A stretch of 64,000 bases of DNA from Actinobacteria bacterium IMCC26256 (GTDB lineage: Bacteria > Actinomycetota > Acidimicrobiia > IMCC26256): the NCBI GenBank assembly GCA_001023575.1, contig CP011489.1, forward strand, positions 806,001 to 870,000, written 5' to 3'. The notes under the pieces were generated by a model. The model worked only from the letters and a program-made list of their open reading frames with translations, made no database searches and was not told the origin of the DNA. Position numbers and translations under genes: made by a program. The first letter of the stretch is position 1. Every line of letters starts with the position of its first letter. Below are positions 29,687-59,946 of this stretch, piece by piece.

Positions 29687-30904
29687 CTATCGATCCGGTG
29701 GTGCTCTCCATGCCCACATGATCTCGCTTGTATTTCCAGAGGCTTTTTTTGCGCAGTCTCCAGCGTGAGTCTTTACGAGTCTGTACCCGTCGTGCGTTTT
29801 TTGAAGGTGATGTCGTCTGCAGAGGCGCACGAGGTTCTCAAAGGATGCAGCTCCACCCTCAGCGAAGGGTTTGATGTGGTCAATCTCGAGTCCTACGGTC
29901 ATGTCACATGTTGGTACCTGGCAGACGCGATCGCGTTCCTCGATAGCGGTGCGCAATGGTGCAGGGATTGCTCGGCCCATATGCGCAACCGTCTTGATGT
30001 CGGTGCCGTTGATTACGAGGAGCTTGAGGAATGCTTCACCCAGATACTCAGTCGCGTTAGCGACAGGTATTGGCCCAACTCCTGCGATCTCACATATCTC
30101 GCCATGCTCGGTATGCCCGCGCTTAAGTGCATCGATGTCGATGCGAATATTCATCACTGCACTAGCGCGTATTGGTTTTGTCCCGCTCGAGCCCTGAGCA
30201 CCCACACTCTTCGCAGCGCAGAGTGCCATTAGTGCATCTGCTGCGTAAGCCTCAGGGCTTTGATGATTACCACTCTTACGCGCTTGCTTAAATATCTCGT
30301 CCTGGATTGGTTTGAGTGCAGCCATCACAATTGCACCATTAGCAACGGTCATGCGCCCTTTAACAATGAAGGCACCATCAGGGTCAATCCACGACCTCAA
30401 GGAACGTGATTTATGTATCTGTCTGTGTCTCGCTGCCTCATCTGTGGCTGCTGCAACTACACGAGAGGCTGCGTCACGCAGATCGCGCACCGTTGCATAT
30501 GTAGCGAGTTTTAAGAGCTGGGACTCAGTATTCGGGTCAACAATGGCACCACGCGCTACCTCGACCGCCTGCGCGTTGGAGAGCGTGCCTGAGAGCAATG
30601 CTGCCTGCGTAGTGGGAAGGTGCTGGAGTTGATTTGCGAGGATCACCACAGACTGGGCCTCATATTGCGCACAATCAGTCTCAGAGCTAAGCCACTCGGA
30701 AATATTCTTAGCGCCTTCGCCCTTCCAAGCATTTGTGCGCTCTACTTGGCCCACGGCGACGGTTCGTAGCGAATCTCCACAGCGGCGGATTCCGTCAGCA
30801 ATCCCAACCAACTTGGCCGCGCCCTTGCCATCAATCGTCTCAACATTTACGCGAGAAGCGCAATCGACTAGGTGATTAAAGGCTGCGTTGAGTTCATCGA
30901 ACAT
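29687..30904 (-). CDS. DUF222 / 13E12-repeat family protein with HNH endonuclease domain
   Basis: A protein of 405 residues with an N-terminal helical DUF222 domain and a C-terminal HNH nuclease: Cys-Gln-Val-Pro-Thr-Cys, Glu-Ile-Asp-His-Ile-Lys-Pro, Asn-Leu-Val-Arg-Leu-Cys-Arg-Arg-His-His. The family equals the 13E12 repeat proteins of mycobacteria, which often lie under SOS control and behave like scattered selfish or DNA-damage genes. I set the start at the ATG at 30904 (Met-Phe-Asp-Glu-Leu) since a -10 and a perfect SOS box fall immediately upstream; a longer frame begins at 30934. It splits the usual proS-rimP neighbourhood. Confidence 0.92.
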   Translation of the reverse strand: MFDELNAAFNHLVDCASRVNVETIDGKGAAKLVGIADGIRRCGDSLRTVAVGQVERTNAWKGEGAKNISEWLSSETDCAQYEAQSVVILANQLQHLPTTQAALLSGTLSNAQAVEVARGAIVDPNTESQLLKLATYATVRDLRDAASRVVAAATDEAARHRQIHKSRSLRSWIDPDGAFIVKGRMTVANGAIVMAALKPIQDEIFKQARKSGNHQSPEAYAADALMALCAAKSVGAQGSSGTKPIRASAVMNIRIDIDALKRGHTEHGEICEIAGVGPIPVANATEYLGEAFLKLLVINGTDIKTVAHMGRAIPAPLRTAIEERDRVCQVPTCDMTVGLEIDHIKPFAEGGAASFENLVRLCRRHHLQKTHDGYRLVKTHAGDCAKKASGNTSEIMWAWRAPPDR

Positions 30905-30912
30905 ATGTTCGA
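30897..30912. promoter_or_regulatory. LexA (SOS) box over the start of the DUF222-HNH gene
   Basis: TCGAACATATGTTCGA is a perfect 16-bp palindrome and matches the mycobacterial SOS box core CGAAC-N4-GTTCG. It covers the start codon and the expected transcription start, so bound LexA should block initiation. Confidence 0.85.
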
Positions 30913-30917
30913 CTCTA
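30912..30917 (-). promoter_or_regulatory. -10 element of a leaderless promoter for the DUF222-HNH gene
   Basis: TAGAGT on the minus strand, seven bases before the ATG. It overlaps the end of the SOS palindrome. Confidence 0.55.
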
Positions 30918-31064
30918 ATTCGGAGGTGTGACAACTACGAGCTCAAACGACAAGATCCAGCCCGTTGGCCCAGTGGGAGCCCTGCCGACCAGCGCGAAAT
31001 CTCCACGACATGCGCCAAGAACTAGGGGATTAGAGCGGTGTAGCGCTATCCAGTGGCCTCCCGC

Positions 31065-43881: not shown

Positions 43882-44670
43882 ATGACACGAGTTGGAGTAT
43901 TTGGTGCCGCCGGGCGTATGGGGCAGGCTGTTTGTAGTGCAGTAATAGAGGCCGATGGGCTTGAACTCGTCGCTGCGATAGACCCTGCTGCCGCTGGGCG
44001 CTCAATCGGAGAGTATCTACCCGGTTCGCAGCTCACGATCGCGAACTCAGCGCAGGCGCTCCTCGATGCGGGGGCGGATGTGGCCGTTGACTTCACGGTG
44101 CTTGAGGCGGCTCGCACGAACCTTCAATGGTGCGCGGCAAACGGTCTCCATGCGGTAGTCGGCACAACAGGATTTAGCGAAGAAGATCTCGCAGGTTTTA
44201 CCAAAGCATTTGAGGCCTCATCAGCCAACGCATTGATAGCTGCAAACTTTGCAATCGGTGCGGTGTTGATGATGCGCTTTGCCGAGTTAGCAGCGCCGTG
44301 GTTTGAGACCGCTGAGATAATTGAACTCCACCATGATGCAAAGGCAGATGCTCCATCTGGAACCGCAGTGGTTACCGCACAGCGCATGGCTTTGGCATCG
44401 GGGGAGTGGGCACCCGACCCTACGCAGACCGTGATCGCCGAGGGCGCTCGCGGAGGCCTTGTCGCTGACGCAATACGCGTTCACTCTGTACGGCTGCGCG
44501 GACTGGTCGCTCACCAAGAAGTGCTGCTAGGAACCACGGGGCAGTCCCTATCTATTCGTCACGACTCCTACGATCGCAGTTCGTTCATGCCAGGGGTGGT
44601 CCTAGCGGTGCGAGAGATTGCAAATCTCCCAGGGCTTACCCTCGGGCTCGACTCGCTTCTCGGCCTATAA
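43882..44670 (+). CDS. dapB: 4-hydroxy-tetrahydrodipicolinate reductase
   Basis: Second committed step to diaminopimelate and lysine. It has 262 residues. The NAD(P) site is Val-Phe-Gly-Ala-Ala-Gly-Arg-Met-Gly, and the catalytic motif is Glu-Leu-His-His-Asp-Ala-Lys-Ala-Asp-Ala-Pro-Ser-Gly-Thr. The fold and length are normal. In mycobacteria dapB is followed by thyX and dapA before RNase J; neither is present here, where an accessory islet takes that place. Confidence 0.96.
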   Translation: MTRVGVFGAAGRMGQAVCSAVIEADGLELVAAIDPAAAGRSIGEYLPGSQLTIANSAQALLDAGADVAVDFTVLEAARTNLQWCAANGLHAVVGTTGFSEEDLAGFTKAFEASSANALIAANFAIGAVLMMRFAELAAPWFETAEIIELHHDAKADAPSGTAVVTAQRMALASGEWAPDPTQTVIAEGARGGLVADAIRVHSVRLRGLVAHQEVLLGTTGQSLSIRHDSYDRSSFMPGVVLAVREIANLPGLTLGLDSLLGL

Positions 44671-44684
44671 ACCTAGGGTTTTCG

Positions 44685-45287
44685 ATGCCTAATGAGGTAA
44701 CAACTCGCGAGCGCATTCTTGAAGCAACATATGCCTGTATTGCGCGACATGGCTTAGACCGCACCACCCTCGAGGATGTAGCGCGAGAGTGCGATCTGTC
44801 TCGAGCGACTCTCTACAGAGTTTTCCCCGGTGGTCGTGACGATCTGTTGCGCGAAGTAGTCGTCTGGGAGATGGGTAGATTCTTTGGGCAGTTAGCTGAG
44901 GCAGTTGCAGGAGCGCCTGACTTCGCAAGTCTGGTGGAGGAGGGACTCAGGTTCGCTCGTGCTGCGCTCACCGAGCACGCTGTTCTCCAGACCGTCCTGC
45001 TTACGGAGCCAGAGCGATTGCTTCCCCTCATGACCGTTGAGTCAGAGCGTCCGCTTCGTTTCATTGTGGAGTATCTAATACCGTTCCTTGAGCGGGAGGA
45101 GAGTGCGGGGCGACTGCGCCCTGGCGTCTCGGTAACCGATGCGGCTGAGTACACGGGGAGGTTGCTTCTCTCCCTTATTGGCTCACCGGGAACCTGGGAC
45201 CTTACGGACCCGATTCAGACGAGAGTATTGGTTCGAGAGCATCTACTCGCAGGGATCATCACCCCGGAGGCGCTTGGCTCTCCCTGA
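44685..45287 (+). CDS. TetR family transcriptional regulator (first of two)
   Basis: A 200-residue regulator. The N-terminal HTH is clear: Thr-Leu-Glu-Asp-Val-Ala-Arg-Glu-Cys-Asp-Leu-Ser-Arg-Ala-Thr-Leu-Tyr-Arg-Val-Phe. The C-terminal domain would bind an unknown ligand. It is related to the second TetR at 47.97 kb: both carry the Glu-Pro-Glu-(Arg/Gln)-x-Leu-Pro segment in the ligand domain. It lies 14 bases after dapB and is probably read through from it. Its last 20 residues, Leu-Val-Arg-Glu-His-Leu-Leu-Ala-Gly-Ile, recur in a remnant beyond the RCC1-like gene. Confidence 0.9.
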   Translation: MPNEVTTRERILEATYACIARHGLDRTTLEDVARECDLSRATLYRVFPGGRDDLLREVVVWEMGRFFGQLAEAVAGAPDFASLVEEGLRFARAALTEHAVLQTVLLTEPERLLPLMTVESERPLRFIVEYLIPFLEREESAGRLRPGVSVTDAAEYTGRLLLSLIGSPGTWDLTDPIQTRVLVREHLLAGIITPEALGSP

Positions 45288-45355
45288 AGCATTAGGGATC
45301 TCTGAGAGATTGCGCAACGGGTTCGCAGATCTGTGTCCGCTGGCCAGATCCTGAT

Positions 45356-45379
45356 GGCGCGAAGGGGGACTTCGCCGCC
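45356..45379. terminator. Hairpin between the first tetR and the RCC1-like gene
   Basis: GGC-GCGAAG and CTTCGC-(C)-GCC form a nine-pair stem with one bulge and a five-base loop. It lies between convergent genes. There is no U-tract. Confidence 0.5.
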
Positions 45380-45429
45380 CCAGAGGTCCACTAACACAAC
45401 ATTGATACTCAGCCTCTATGTCTCAGGCT

Positions 45430-47688
45430 CTAGATACCACTTACAACTACAGGTATCGACGAGTTCGTGGTGGTGTTGTTCCCTAACTGCCCGGAGCCGT
45501 TATAGCCCCAGCATTTGGCGGTCCCGTCCGCCAACAACGCACACGAATGGTAGCCAGCGGCACCGGCCGAGATAGCCACCGCGGATGCCAGGCCACTCAC
45601 CACTACCGGTATTGACGATGGCGTGGTCGTGCGGTTCCCTAACTGCCCGGAGAAGTTGTCGCCCCAGCATTTGGCGGTCCCGTCCGCCAACAACGCACAC
45701 GAATGGGAGCCACCGGTTGAGATAGCCACCGTATTCGACAGGCCACTCACCGCTACAGGTATTTTCGCATCCGCGAATGTGCCGTTCCCTAACTGCCCGG
45801 AGAGGTTATAGCCCCAGCATTTGGCGGTCCCGTCTGCCAACAACGCACATGAATGGGAGCCACCGGCCGAGATGGCCACCGCGGATGCCAGGCCACTCAC
45901 TACTACCGGTTTCAACGAATTCGTGAGTTTGTTGTTCCCCAACTGCCCGGAGAAGTTATTGCCCCAGCATTTGGCGGTCCCGTTCGCCAACAACGCACAT
46001 GAATGGGAGCCACCGGCCGAGATAGCCACTGCATTGGACAGGCCACTCACCACTACCGGTATCAACGAATCCGTGGTCGTGTTGTTCCCCAAATTCCCGA
46101 AGTAGTTCTCGCCCCAGCATTTGGCGGTCCCGTTCGCCAACAACGCACACGAATAGCGGGGGCCAGCGGAGATAGCCACCGCGTTTACTAGGCCACTAAC
46201 CACTACCGGTATCGACGAATCCGTGGTCGTGTTGTTCCCCAAATTCCCCCAGTTCTCGCCCCAGCATTTGGCGGTCCCGTTCGCCAACAACGCACACGAA
46301 TGCGCGGCGCCGGTCGAGATAGCCACCGCATTCGACAGGCCACTCACCACTACCGGTATAGACGAATTCGTGGTCGTGTTGTTCCCCAACTGCCCCCAGT
46401 AGTTATCGCCCCAGCATTCGGCGGTCCCGTTCGCCAACAACGCACACGTATTGCGCTCGCCGCCAGCAGAGATAGCCACCGCCGCAGCCCCCGACGACAG
46501 GCCACTCACCACTACCGGTATCGACGAATCCGTGGTCGTGTTGTTCCCCAACTGCCCGGAGAGGTTATCGCCCCAGCATTTGGCGGTCCCGTTCGCCAAC
46601 AACGCACACGAACTGCTGCCGCCGGCCGAGATAGCCACCGCATTCGACAGGCCACTCACCACTACCGGTATCGACGAATTCGTGGTCGTGTTGTTCCCCA
46701 ACTGCCCGGAGAAGTTATAGCCCCAGCATTTGGCGGTCCCGTTCGCCAACAAGGCACACGAATGGGAGCCGCCGGCCGAGATGGCCACCGCGGATGCCAG
46801 GCCACTCACCACTACCGGTATCGACGAGTTCGTGGTTGTGTTGTTCCCCAACTGCCCGGAGGCGTTATAGCCCCAGCATTTGGCGGTCCCGTTCGCCAAC
46901 AAGGCACACGAATGGGAGCCGCCGGCCGAGATAGCTACTGCGTTTACCAGGCTGCTTACCACTACAGGTATCGACGAGTTCGTGGTTGTGTTGTTCCCCA
47001 ACTGACCACTTGAATTGTTACCCCAGCATTTGGCGGTCCCGTTAGCCAACAACCCACAGGATTGGGAGCCGCCAGCCGAGATCGCCACTGCGGATGCCAG
47101 GCCACTTACTACTACCGGTATCGACGAGTTCGTGGTGGTGTTGTTCCCTAACTGCCCGGAGTTGTTATAGCCCCAGCATTCGGCGGTACCGTTCGCCAGC
47201 AAGGCACACGAATGGGAACCGCCAGTCGAGATGGCCACCGCAGTTACCAGGCCACTTACTACTACCGGTATTGACGATTGCGTGGTTGTGCCGTTCCCTA
47301 ACTCCCCGGAGCCGTTATAGCCCCAGCATTTGGCGGTCCCGTTCGCCAGCAAGGCACACGAATGGGAGCCACCGGAGGAGATAGCCACCGCGGATGCCAG
47401 GCCACTCACCACTACCGGTATCGGCGAGTTCGTGGTGGTGTTGTTCCCTAACTGCCCGGAGCCGTTATAGCCCCAGCATTGGGCGGTACCGTTCGCCAAC
47501 AACGCACACGAATGGAGATCGCCGGTTGAGATCGCAGGCCGCACTGACGCTGCACCTGGCTGCGCATCTACTGCGCCAGCCGGAGCCGAGAGAGCGGGAG
47601 AAGCAGCCGTCAATGCCCCCCCAACCATCACCATCACCGCGAACAACACGGAAAAGATACGAGAGCGCCGAACGAAACTGAGAGTCAT
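45430..47688 (-). CDS. Secreted RCC1-like beta-propeller protein with 14 repeats
   Basis: A 752-residue exported protein. Residues 1-35 are a Sec signal peptide (Arg-Arg-Ser-Arg, then a hydrophobic core, ending Ala-Leu-Ser-Ala). From residue 53 to the end run 14 near-identical repeats of about 50 residues, each with a core [14 protein letters not shown]. Fourteen repeats equal two seven-bladed propellers. Every repeat has two Cys spaced Cys-x9-Cys, which suggests one disulfide per blade outside the cell. One residue, two places after Cys-Trp-Gly-x, varies strongly (Gly, Asn, Ser, Ala, Phe, Leu, Tyr, Trp). The protein ends within the last repeat, with no anchor. The partner is unknown; a binding or adhesion role is only a guess. 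Confidence 0.88.
45433..47532 (-). repeat. Fourteen tandem repeats of about 150 bp coding the propeller blades
   Basis: Each unit is 141-159 bp, and 14 units fill 2.1 kb. Long stretches are almost identical in DNA, for example CCCCAGCATTTGGCGGTCCC on the plus strand in most units. This points to recent amplification or gene conversion, and the array is prone to change copy number and to misassemble. Confidence 0.9.
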
Positions 47689-47742
47689 ATCAATACCCCG
47701 CCCTAGCCGAACCCACCCCGTAAACCCCGGGGTACGTCGAAA

Positions 47743-47748
47743 CGTATA
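47743..47748 (-). promoter_or_regulatory. Possible -10 for the RCC1-like gene
   Basis: TATACG on the minus strand would give a leader of about 50 bases that contains a CCCCGGGG palindrome and GGGCGGGG before the ATG. It lies right beside the tetR remnant. No good -35 is seen. Confidence 0.35.
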
Positions 47749-47754
47749 CCCAAT

Positions 47755-47850
47755 CTCTCAGTAGCACAACTAAAACAAGGTTGCGGTTACCTCGTACGGG
47801 AGCACCTTCTTGCCGGAATCCTGACCTCAGAGGACCTCGAAGCCCCTTAG
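47755..47850 (+). pseudogene. 3'-end remnant of a tetR gene
   Basis: The plus strand reads Leu-Val-Arg-Glu-His-Leu-Leu-Ala-Gly-Ile-Leu-Thr-Ser-Glu-Asp-Leu-Glu-Ala-Pro-stop (47791-47850). The first TetR in this window ends Leu-Val-Arg-Glu-His-Leu-Leu-Ala-Gly-Ile-Ile-Thr-Pro-Glu-Ala-Leu-Gly-Ser-Pro-stop. About 14 of 19 residues match, yet the codons differ at many third positions, so the copies diverged long ago or came from different strains. Upstream of Leu-Val-Arg the match fades and there is no start codon. The rest of the 284-bp gap holds only the promoters of the flanking genes. Confidence 0.75.
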
Positions 47851-47935
47851 GCCTAACGTGGGCAGACCGCCCAATTCGGGCCAAATCCGTTCTAGCGACA
47901 GGGATATCTCGCAAAAATTTGTGACGCTAGACACG

Positions 47936-47965
47936 TTGACGCTGATACAGAACTTGTCTTATTGT
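47936..47965 (+). promoter_or_regulatory. Promoter of the second tetR gene
   Basis: TTGACG (47936-47941), an 18-base spacer and TATTGT (47960-47965), then seven bases to the GTG: the best -35/-10 pair in the window, and leaderless. TGACGCT occurs twice, at 47922-47928 and 47937-47943, overlapping the -35, and could bind the regulator. Confidence 0.65.
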
Positions 47966-47972
47966 CTCACCT

Positions 47973-48644
47973 GTGGCAAAGACAGTATCGACAAAACCAG
48001 TTTTGAGCAAGGGTTCAACTCAGGATCGACTTATCGGGGCCACCTTGGTATCCGTATCTCGTCATGGCCTCGCTAAGACAACTGTCGATGATGTTGCTCG
48101 TGAAGCGGGAGTGGGGAGAGCAACTCTCTACCGTTACTTCCCAAACAAGCAGGCGCTCTTAGAGGCGACCCTGAACGCTGAGGTTCTGCGAATTTCTCAG
48201 GAGATTCATTCAGCTGGAGAGGAGCAGACCGATCTCGACGGTGCGCTTGTAGCGATGATGTCAGTTGCCGCTAACGAAGTCGCTCACCATGAGGCCCTGC
48301 AGTATGCGTTTGCAAATGAACCGGAGCAGGTTCTGCCTCACCTTGCATTCGAGGGTGGAGACCGATTTATTCTGCTAGCCGCTAATGCGTTCGCTCCAAC
48401 GCTTGCAAGATTCCTACCCATTGAGCGCGTTGTCCGCAGTTCCGAGTGGTGCGCGCGAATTATCCTCGCATTTCTCGTCCCGAGTGTTCAACTTGTTATC
48501 GCAGATGCGGTTCTTGTGCGCGATGCCGTGCGGACTTTTATTCTGCCCGGAATAGTTCCAGAGTCTCTTCTAACAGTAAATAAAACAGTGATTACGCAAG
48601 GCGTTAGTGAAGTTCCAACAACCGGTAAATCAAAAAAGGGGTAA
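47973..48644 (+). CDS. TetR family transcriptional regulator (second of two)
   Basis: A 223-residue regulator with the HTH Thr-Val-Asp-Asp-Val-Ala-Arg-Glu-Ala-Gly-Val-Gly-Arg-Ala-Thr-Leu-Tyr-Arg-Tyr-Phe. Its ligand domain resembles that of the first TetR in size and in the Glu-Pro-Glu-Gln-Val-Leu-Pro motif. It begins at a leaderless GTG and ends five bases before the diiron protein gene, so the two form an operon and the regulator probably controls it. The C-terminal 25 residues are Thr/Lys/Ser-rich. Confidence 0.9.
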   Translation: MAKTVSTKPVLSKGSTQDRLIGATLVSVSRHGLAKTTVDDVAREAGVGRATLYRYFPNKQALLEATLNAEVLRISQEIHSAGEEQTDLDGALVAMMSVAANEVAHHEALQYAFANEPEQVLPHLAFEGGDRFILLAANAFAPTLARFLPIERVVRSSEWCARIILAFLVPSVQLVIADAVLVRDAVRTFILPGIVPESLLTVNKTVITQGVSEVPTTGKSKKG

Positions 48645-48649
48645 TTGCA

Positions 48650-49762
48650 GTGACTACTAACTACGACATGCTTGGTCGTGATGAATTAAATGACCTTGAG
48701 GCAATTCTCTCAATATCTAACAGTGATGTTGACGAGGTAATCCACACAGTCCGCGCCAACTCCGATGTGTTGTTCACCTGGGACTACGAGCGCTCAAGGC
48801 CAGCGCTGGTGAAGCTATACGAGAAGGCCAAGACCTCTCAATGGAACGCTGAGACGGACCTCGACTGGTCAATAGAAGTCGACCAAGTGGCAGAGGTTCG
48901 TAAGGGCCAGAATGCAGATAAGTCAGCCTTTGGAGAGATGGACCTCAAAGGAACTGTGTTCTCAACATGGGGCGAGGATGACTGGGTCAATCTAGGTGTT
49001 GAGATGCAGAACTGGTCTCTCTCGCAGTTCATGCACGGCGAGCAGGGCGCCCTCATCTGTACAGCCCAGATTGTAGAGACTGTGCCGTGGATCGACGCTA
49101 AGTACTACGCGGCGACTCAGGTCATGGATGAGGCTCGTCATGTCGAGGTTTTCGCAAAGTACCTAGATACGAAGCTCTCAGGCCACTACCCGGTAAACGC
49201 CCACCTCAAGATGCTCCTCGATGACATCATTGCCGACGAGCGCTGGGATATGACATACCTAGGTATGCAGATCATGGTTGAGGGGCTCGCCTTGGCTGCC
49301 TTTGGATTCATGCAGCAGATGTCGAGTGAGCCACTTCTCAAGAAGCTCCTTCGTTATGTCATGTCTGATGAGGCCCGCCACGTTGCTTTCGGAGTGCTCT
49401 CACTGCAGGACTTCTACCAAGAGCTCAACTCCAAGGAGATTCGTGAGCGCCAGGAGTTTGCATACGAGGCTGCAGTGCGCATGCGCGACCGTTTCCTCCA
49501 GCAAGAGGTATGGGAGCGTATGGGGGTTGACCCTAAAGAGGCTCTTACCCTGACCCTCGCAGACCCGAACCGCAATGTGTTCTCCGGAATCCTCTTCTCA
49601 AAGATTGTCCCCAACTGCAAAAAGCTTGGGCTTCTTGACGCAGGAGACGGATGGCTTCGCACGAAGTTCACCGAGCTCGGCGTGATCGAGTACGAGGACT
49701 GGGTAGATACCGGTGCGGAGTACGACAGCCTTGATGCGGTTGCTCAGGACCGCACTGCCTAA
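48650..49762 (+). CDS. Ferritin-like diiron protein (possible oxygenase)
   Basis: A 370-residue protein with the full ligand set of a ferritin-like diiron site: Glu131, then Asp160-Glu161-Ala-Arg-His164; Glu211, then Asp240-Glu241-Ala-Arg-His244. Both halves have the same spacing, Glu-x29-Glu-x2-His. The size exceeds ferritin and suits an R2-like or AurF-like oxygenase or desaturase. Similar proteins are widespread in actinobacteria and mostly uncharacterised. A TetR gene lies immediately upstream in the same operon. The substrate is unknown; TetR control would fit a lipid or aromatic compound, which is inference. Confidence 0.85.
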   Translation: MTTNYDMLGRDELNDLEAILSISNSDVDEVIHTVRANSDVLFTWDYERSRPALVKLYEKAKTSQWNAETDLDWSIEVDQVAEVRKGQNADKSAFGEMDLKGTVFSTWGEDDWVNLGVEMQNWSLSQFMHGEQGALICTAQIVETVPWIDAKYYAATQVMDEARHVEVFAKYLDTKLSGHYPVNAHLKMLLDDIIADERWDMTYLGMQIMVEGLALAAFGFMQQMSSEPLLKKLLRYVMSDEARHVAFGVLSLQDFYQELNSKEIRERQEFAYEAAVRMRDRFLQQEVWERMGVDPKEALTLTLADPNRNVFSGILFSKIVPNCKKLGLLDAGDGWLRTKFTELGVIEYEDWVDTGAEYDSLDAVAQDRTA

Positions 49763-58142: not shown

Positions 58143-59374
58143 TGAAGGTAGATGTGCTTGCTGTCGGGACAGAGTTACTACTCGGGCAGATCGTAGATAC
58201 GAACTCTTCATGGATCGGCGAGCAATTAGCGAGCGCCGGTATCGATACCTACGAGCACCGAAAGATCGGGGACAATCTGGATCGCGTTGTGCGTTGCATT
58301 GAGTCCATGCTTGAGACAGCCGATGCCATTATTATCTGCGGTGGTCTAGGCCCCACACCTGATGATTTAACTCGCGAGGCAATCGCTCAGGCTATGGGCG
58401 TTCCTCTAGAGCGCAGGGAGGAATTAGTCGATTGGATCGCATCCCTCTTTGGTGGTCGAGGAAGACAGATGCCAGAGAACAATCTTCGACAGGCCGATGT
58501 GCCAGTTGGCGGGGATGTAATTCCTAATCCGATCGGCACCGCACCGGGGCTGAAGTGTGAATTCAATGGCCGTGTTATATATGCAGTCCCGGGCGTTCCG
58601 TACGAGATGCAGCGCATGGTAAATGAACATGTAATCCCTGATCTTTTAGAGAGAACAGGGGAGCGCGCGGTGATCCTCAATCGATCACTAAAGACATGGG
58701 GGGCATCGGAGTCCGGACTCGCAGAGATGATTGCGAGACAGGTCGATGATCAGTCGAATCCTTCAATCGCATTTCTGGCGCGCGGAATTGAGGGAATTGT
58801 GGTTCGTCTAACTGCAAAGGCCCCGACACTCGAGGCGGCAGCAGCACTCATCGCTCCCGAGGAGGCGAAGTTGCGCTCGACTCTAGGAGATCTCATTTTT
58901 GCAGTAGATGACGAGACCATGGAGGAGGCTGTCCTCTCTCGCCTAGGGGCTCGCGGCTGGACACTAGGTGTCGCTGAGTCTTTAACTGGAGGCCTAGTTG
59001 GTTCGCGCATTGCTGGAGTGCCCGGGGCAAGTGCGATATTCAAAGGGACAATTGGAGCGTATGCAACTGAGGTCAAACAGTCATTGCTAGGTGTTACCTC
59101 AGATGAGGTGGTGAGTGCTGAATGCGCTAGGGAGATGGCCGAGGGTGCTCGTCGAGTGCTTGGCTCCGACGTAGGCATCTCTGTTACCGGTGTAGCCGGC
59201 CCTGATTCTCAAGACGGAGCTCCTGTGGGAACGGTTTGGTTTGGGCTTGCTCTGCCTGGCCTTCCGGTTGAGGCAGTAACCGCACGTTTGCCAGGAGATC
59301 GTGAACGCATCAGGCAGTTCTCGACGATCTCGCTAATGAATCTTCTGCGTATGCGCCTCGACGCACTTGCGTGA
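58142..59374 (+). CDS. cinA: CinA-family protein (competence/damage-inducible; nicotinamide-nucleotide amidase)
   Basis: A 410-residue protein from the GTG at 58142. The N-terminal MoCF-like domain has Gly-Thr-Glu-Leu-Leu-Leu-Gly-Gln-Ile-Val-Asp-Thr-Asn and Gly-Gly-Leu-Gly-Pro-Thr-Pro-Asp-Asp, and may hydrolyse ADP-ribose. The C-terminal CinA domain has Val-Ala-Glu-Ser-Leu-Thr-Gly-Gly and Thr-Gly-Val-Ala-Gly-Pro, the NMN deamidase site. cinA next to recA is a conserved arrangement. It overlaps pgsA by one base and thpR by four. Confidence 0.95.
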   Translation: MKVDVLAVGTELLLGQIVDTNSSWIGEQLASAGIDTYEHRKIGDNLDRVVRCIESMLETADAIIICGGLGPTPDDLTREAIAQAMGVPLERREELVDWIASLFGGRGRQMPENNLRQADVPVGGDVIPNPIGTAPGLKCEFNGRVIYAVPGVPYEMQRMVNEHVIPDLLERTGERAVILNRSLKTWGASESGLAEMIARQVDDQSNPSIAFLARGIEGIVVRLTAKAPTLEAAAALIAPEEAKLRSTLGDLIFAVDDETMEEAVLSRLGARGWTLGVAESLTGGLVGSRIAGVPGASAIFKGTIGAYATEVKQSLLGVTSDEVVSAECAREMAEGARRVLGSDVGISVTGVAGPDSQDGAPVGTVWFGLALPGLPVEAVTARLPGDRERIRQFSTISLMNLLRMRLDALA

Positions 59375-59946
59375 AGAGCTCCAATGATTCGCTACGACGT
59401 TTATTTGTCGCTGTAGTTCCGCCGCTACAGGTTGTCGAGGCAGTTACCTCATTGCTGCCACGCGAATCGTCTCGCCTCATGCAATGGACTACTCCGATAC
59501 GTCTGCATATATCTATAGATTTTCTTGGGCGAGTCAACGGTGTAGATAGTTTTTTGCAAGACCTTTCAGCGCGAGTTGGCGTGATTGATCCGTTTACGGT
59601 TCGTCTGCGCGGTGCAGGTGCGTTTCCTGAAGCGCGTAGAGCCGAAGTATTTTGGCTAGGAATAGAAGACGCAGAGTCTGGATTACGCGCCGCACATTTA
59701 GTCGTGCTCGAGGCTGCACGCGTTCATGGGATTCGTATTGCTTCACATATTTTTACGCCGCAATTAACAATTGCTCGATTGAATCGCAAGGCAGATCTAA
59801 GACCAGATATTGCCGCTCTCGAGGGGGTTGCTATCGGAGAGCCATGGCGAGTTGAGGAGATTCTCCTGCTGGATGCTCCCAAGCCCAGGGGCTCCAAGGG
59901 CGATGTGTCATTTGCTCAGATTGGTACCCTCAGGTTGGGGCAATAG
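59371..59946 (+). CDS. thpR: RNA 2',3'-cyclic phosphodiesterase ThpR, second His replaced
   Basis: 2H phosphoesterase family protein of 191 residues (LigT/ThpR). The first His-x-Thr/Ser-x motif is Leu-His-Ile-Ser-Ile-Asp-Phe-Leu-Gly. The second normally reads Pro-His-Leu-Thr-Leu-Ala-Arg; here it reads Pro-Gln-Leu-Thr-Ile-Ala-Arg. The enzyme may therefore be weak or inactive, or its fold used for RNA binding. The frame is intact and coupled to cinA by a GTGA overlap. It lies between cinA and recA, a common place for thpR. Confidence 0.88.
   Translation: MKSSNDSLRRLFVAVVPPLQVVEAVTSLLPRESSRLMQWTTPIRLHISIDFLGRVNGVDSFLQDLSARVGVIDPFTVRLRGAGAFPEARRAEVFWLGIEDAESGLRAAHLVVLEAARVHGIRIASHIFTPQLTIARLNRKADLRPDIAALEGVAIGEPWRVEEILLLDAPKPRGSKGDVSFAQIGTLRLGQ

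Follow-up and report, generated by a model that had tools for sequence, protein, structure and literature searches.

The window analyzed here is a 64-kb stretch within a single 2.46-Mb contig. It harbors, in this order, dapB, a first TetR-family regulator gene (tetR1), an oppositely oriented RCC1-repeat gene, the orphan 3′ end of a tetR gene, a second regulator gene (tetR2), the gene of an AurF-like diiron oxygenase (aurF), and an RNase J gene (Table 1). The RCC1 gene encodes 14 repeats of ~50 amino acids with a signal-peptide-like N terminus, and its RCC1 profile matches reach E values down to 3e-225.

Table 1. Features of the dapB–aurF locus (aa, amino acid identity).
Feature	Position	Strand	Evidence
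dapB (dihydrodipicolinate reductase), left anchor	43882..44670	+	Pfam DapB_N/DapB_C; 91% aa to G001
tetR1, complete TetR-family gene and proposed xenolog (incoming copy)	44685..45287	+	PF00440; 75% aa to G001
Tail of intact tetR1, VLVREHLLAGIITPEALGSP*; homolog of the remnant	45225..45287	+	
Imperfect inverted repeat, left arm, CTGAGAGATTGCGCAACGGGTTCG; may be an element end	45302..45325	+	Shuffling/window control p 0.006 to 0.027; single copy
RCC1-repeat gene, 752 aa	45430..47688	-	PF25390/PF00415/PF13540
Right arm of imperfect inverted repeat	47738..47761	-	
Orphan 3′ end of displaced native tetR1, YLVREHLLAGILTSEDLEAP*	47788..47850	+	Tail identity to G001; continuous with native intergenic
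Native tetR1–tetR2 intergenic, predicted tetR2 promoter/operator region	47851..47972	+	Alignment to G001
tetR2, second TetR-family regulator	47973..48644	+	PF00440; 71% aa to G001
aurF (AurF-like diiron oxygenase), right anchor	48650..49762	+	PF11583; 95% aa to G001

The orphan end comprises the last 20 codons of a tetR1-type gene and lies ~2.5 kb from the intact tetR1. An earlier note on this DNA had described it as homologous to the end of the intact regulator gene, and this observation is confirmed: the motif LVREHLLAGI is complete (10/10) at both places, and tblastn with tetR1 as query against the tetR1–tetR2 gap finds the remnant with E = 5e-5. Across all six reading frames, just these two places of the 64-kb window match the motif at 7 or more of its 10 positions. 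Chance resemblance is excluded, because the motif is approached nowhere else in these frames. The tetR homology can be traced over ~20 codons; upstream of them (e.g. ATCTCTCAG, 47752–47760) the likeness to tetR1 is not above chance (p = 0.30).

Three genomes of the same genus (G001, G002, and G003) were compared. The locus is covered by G001 only and is absent from the contigs of G002 and G003. In G001, dapB, tetR1, tetR2, and aurF lie on one contig with ~110 bp between the regulators and no RCC1 gene. At the level of the taxonomic order, tetR1, tetR2, and aurF are kept in this order across most genomes, and the tetR2–aurF gap measures at most 0.41 kb in 29 genomes. The tetR1–tetR2 gap is short in 18 of 31 genomes (G001 and ~17 others), which agrees with the ancestral tetR–tetR–diiron order proposed in the note. 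It holds 0.9 to 6.7 kb of unrelated cargo in the other 13. By reading of the open reading frames rather than by profile search, the cargo includes biotin genes, PfpI-like and AraC-like genes, an IS1595-like transposase, a hydrolase, and others; in G020 (L043 2060–6583) a biotin-synthesis-like gene set is read between tetR1 and tetR2. None of the 13 other cargo-bearing genomes has an RCC1 gene or a tetR remnant in the gap, and tblastn for tetR remnants in them returned unrelated frames with a best E no better than 0.003. The suggestion of a cargo hotspot next to dapB holds in part: the gap is variable at the level of the order (13/31), but the variable spot is the tetR1–tetR2 gap, and no swap of cargo between close strains is seen.

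By alignment, the remnant is the native tetR1 end, still in its native place, because the remnant and the following ~120 bp align with the tetR1 end and intergenic region of G001 as a single block (78% identity over 185 bp, E 1.7e-35; the remnant with its downstream sequence is also given as 78–80%). Other intergenic regions of the window are 76 to 99% identical to G001, a range that includes this block. The sequence that follows the intact tetR1 has no significant match to the G001 intergenic region. As donor intergenic sequence, AGCATTAGGGATCTCTGAG after the intact tetR1 was considered and is not relied on, its likeness to the G001 intergenic region having p = 0.064. The body of the native tetR1 is missing to the left of the remnant tail and is complete in G001. 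To the right, 47917–47970 is partly conserved in G009, G010, and G022, and the right joint lies upstream of this segment. The stretch before tetR2 (47917–47972), partly conserved in three other families, contains a palindrome-like GATACA...TTGTCTC that is a likely tetR2 operator. The tail may have survived through the sparing of the predicted tetR2 promoter region.

On balance, an incoming segment that carried a related tetR1 and the RCC1 gene probably replaced the resident tetR1, through homology on the left and a nonhomologous join on the right. A DNA segment from a related lineage, with a diverged tetR1 followed by the RCC1-repeat gene on the opposite strand, would have been taken up and recombined homologously at dapB/tetR1. 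dapB and the start of tetR1 are alignable with G001. Along tetR1, the fourfold-site identity to G001 drops from 0.71 to 0.47 and lower, without a sharp breakpoint; we infer that the left breakpoint lies either close to where dapB meets tetR1 or within the first third of tetR1. The join on the right would have involved no extensive homology and would lie 20 codons before the end of the resident tetR1. The sequence upstream of the RCC1 gene shows no significant homology to tetR1 (p 0.30 against tetR1 of G001 and 0.93 against the window's own), and the right joint appears to be illegitimate, with short microhomology at most. At the insertion, incoming DNA would thus have taken the place of resident DNA that was lost: the resident tetR1 was presumably exchanged for the most part, and its old 3′ end would have stayed put together with the native intergenic region and the tetR2 promoter. 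After such an event, the site would hold a functional tetR1 complete with its end, followed by the cargo gene, the dead tail, and a tetR2–aurF unit left unchanged. That the intact tetR1 arrived with the RCC1 gene in one event is the simplest form of this proposal and is likewise inferred by us.

The direction of the exchange (which side is foreign) is judged from a single relative, the incomplete genome G001. The remnant is identical to the end of tetR1 in G001 at 47 of 63 bases and the intact tail at 43 of 63; in this comparison, which the note had proposed, the remnant is thus the better match to a relative's tetR. The intact tetR1 is taken as the newcomer because of this resemblance of the remnant to G001, which covers 63 bases in that one relative. 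In the protein tree, tetR1 of the window and of G001 are sisters (support 100/100). The window–G001 path and the distance to G014 are 0.38 versus 0.62 for tetR1, 0.11 versus 0.81 for dapB, and 0.05 versus 0.52 for aurF. tetR1 has diverged several times as far as would be predicted from dapB and aurF, which fits a tetR1 from a related lineage. At fourfold sites, identity to G001 is 0.32 for tetR1, 0.31 for tetR2, 0.61 for both dapB and aurF, and 0.72 for the RNase J gene, most window genes lying at ~0.6–0.9 (0.58 or more). Synonymous divergence was dropped as the sole proof of a foreign tetR1, since tetR2 is equally saturated. The same divergence of tetR2 also speaks for an unlikely mirror-image history, in which the intact tetR1 is native and the right side (the tetR1 tail, the intergenic region, and perhaps tetR2) came from a G001-like lineage and was joined behind the RCC1 gene. 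The end branches of the tetR1 tree point the same way: the window branch is short (0.06) and the G001 branch long (0.33), and the window's tetR1 is nearer to all close outgroups than that of G001. Against this history, aurF and the RNase J gene further to the right look vertically inherited by their fourfold identities, the intergenic region is at the genus baseline, and two right-hand junctions or a crossover within tetR2 would be needed. Of the note's claim that a foreign tetR (or its body) plus the RCC1-like gene had replaced part of the first tetR, the native status of the stranded end stands, and the intact tetR1 as the incoming copy from a related lineage is moderately supported by the sequence comparisons. 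The interpretation of a replacement with cargo is thus largely, not fully, supported.

The RCC1 gene has the highest GC3 of the window genes sampled (0.72 versus 0.42–0.66 for the others). Its best relatives are found in another family of the order (G037 and G050, 57–70% amino acid identity over parts), an affinity that is soft, as repeat genes evolve in concert. Both its composition and this affinity favor arrival with an incoming segment. A phage or plasmid source was rejected, all matches being below 60% identity, and none of the 60 relatives searched has an RCC1 gene next to tetR1 as a donor would, which counts against an incoming tetR1–RCC1 segment. The RCC1 gene is closely flanked on either side by the arms of an inverted repeat with 11 perfect bp and 75% identity over 24 bp (p = 0.006 by shuffling, 0.027 by window control). 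This repeat favors a two-step history, in which tetR1 first gave way to a related copy, with the tail stranded directly behind it, and the two were later separated by insertion of an RCC1 cassette bounded by inverted ends (45302–45325 / 47738–47761). Such a history is improbable, for the repeat is present in a single copy in the genome, and the 60 relatives lack it apart from a few matches with three mismatches. Moreover, the RCC1 gene is the sole gene of the interval, which contains no transposase and no integrase; no target-site duplication is evident, with no direct match of at least 8 bp between the ends and, on reading, different bases outside the arms. The other RCC1 loci of the genome lack these ends and differ in their flanks. 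The RCC1 unit is not called a transposon or insertion sequence, because its repeat is single copy and comes without transposase and target duplication. A multicopy mobile element was also rejected (flanks and inverted repeat are absent elsewhere in the genome and in the 60 relatives), as was a site-specific element that would restore the end of the gene into which it integrates (no integrase is present, and the tails differ at 26 of 63 positions without an identical core). It is very doubtful that RCC1 genes of the lineage travel as small inverted-end cassettes that take a neighboring tetR along, with the tetR1–tetR2 gap upstream of the conserved tetR2 operator as the preferred order-wide landing site.

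The two tails also bear on duplication. Over 63 nucleotides, the remnant and G001 differ at 16 positions, the intact tail and G001 at 20, and the intact tail and the remnant at 26. The last pair is the closest in 0.3% of 10,000 codon bootstraps and remnant–G001 in 80%; the comparison rests on 63 nt, and the remnant–G001 pairing has 80% bootstrap, not 95%. The codons differ at many third positions, as had been remarked, with 5, 4, and 17 differing sites at codon positions 1, 2, and 3 between intact tail and remnant. This pattern suggests that both tails had long evolved as coding sequence before they met in one genome. A divergence of this size would be expected of old paralogs, for instance if an ancestral second tetR1 before tetR2 had been deleted except for its tail. 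This history is highly improbable: two tetR1-type genes in the block are seen in none of the compared genomes, and the single tetR1 of G001 is contiguous with the same intergenic region, its tail and intergenic region matching the remnant. Recent copying of the intact tail does not account for the remnant, the two being the most different pair, and a duplication of the last 60 bp of tetR1 by insertion of the RCC1 unit, which would yield the observed order in a single event, is largely refuted by these mainly synonymous differences and is extremely unlikely.

For the replacement by an incoming tetR1–RCC1 segment, the closest known process is homology-facilitated illegitimate recombination in transformable bacteria, in which a foreign insertion is coupled with a deletion of resident DNA, one joint being homologous and the other illegitimate (PMC3240628; de Vries and Wackernagel 2002 and Meier and Wackernagel 2003, as cited in PMC5361080). 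By analogy, this route is proposed because the alignable left side, the nonhomologous right joint, the lost gene body, and the stranded 3′ end match its traces (PMC3240628); here it would be reconstructed from one genome and one relative. In Vibrio type VI effector–immunity modules and in Rhs loci, the arrival of a new module pushes immunity genes and orphaned 3′ ends further downstream (PMC5361080). The likeness lies in a module that replaces a resident gene via a conserved 5′ anchor and leaves the 3′ end of the old gene orphaned behind it. The present locus differs in that it involves a TetR regulator with RCC1-repeat cargo, has one remnant instead of an array, and lacks a toxin or immunity function. 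It preserves a legible record of gene replacement and cargo gain through ordinary horizontal gene transfer rather than representing a new system, and it adds an example rather than a principle to an outcome known from Rhs and type VI loci. It also places a varying tetR1–tetR2 gap inside a block that is otherwise conserved order-wide.

The RCC1 gene shares its repeat family (PF00415/PF13540), predicted export, and occurrence at several loci in a genome with RCC1-repeat genes of Acidimicrobiia and other bacteria. About nine RCC1 loci are present in this genome, and the copy described here alone interrupts the tetR1–tetR2 pair. A large RCC1 locus (G000:C1 719742–721844) lies between DUF222 genes at 716212 and 726748, and RCC1 and DUF222 genes share each of the G001 contigs C3 and C63. 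Within the window, a DUF222/HNH (13E12-like) gene at 29687–30934 (minus strand) belongs to a multicopy family that has 20 loci in the genome and over 20 matches in G001. A copy of this family adjoins dapB upstream in G001 (L006 3138–3600; G001:C106:3683–4183), and the other dapB flank is therefore variable too. Elsewhere in the window, the gene at 59371–59946 has 60% amino acid identity to its G001 counterpart, and its neighbors have more than 90%.
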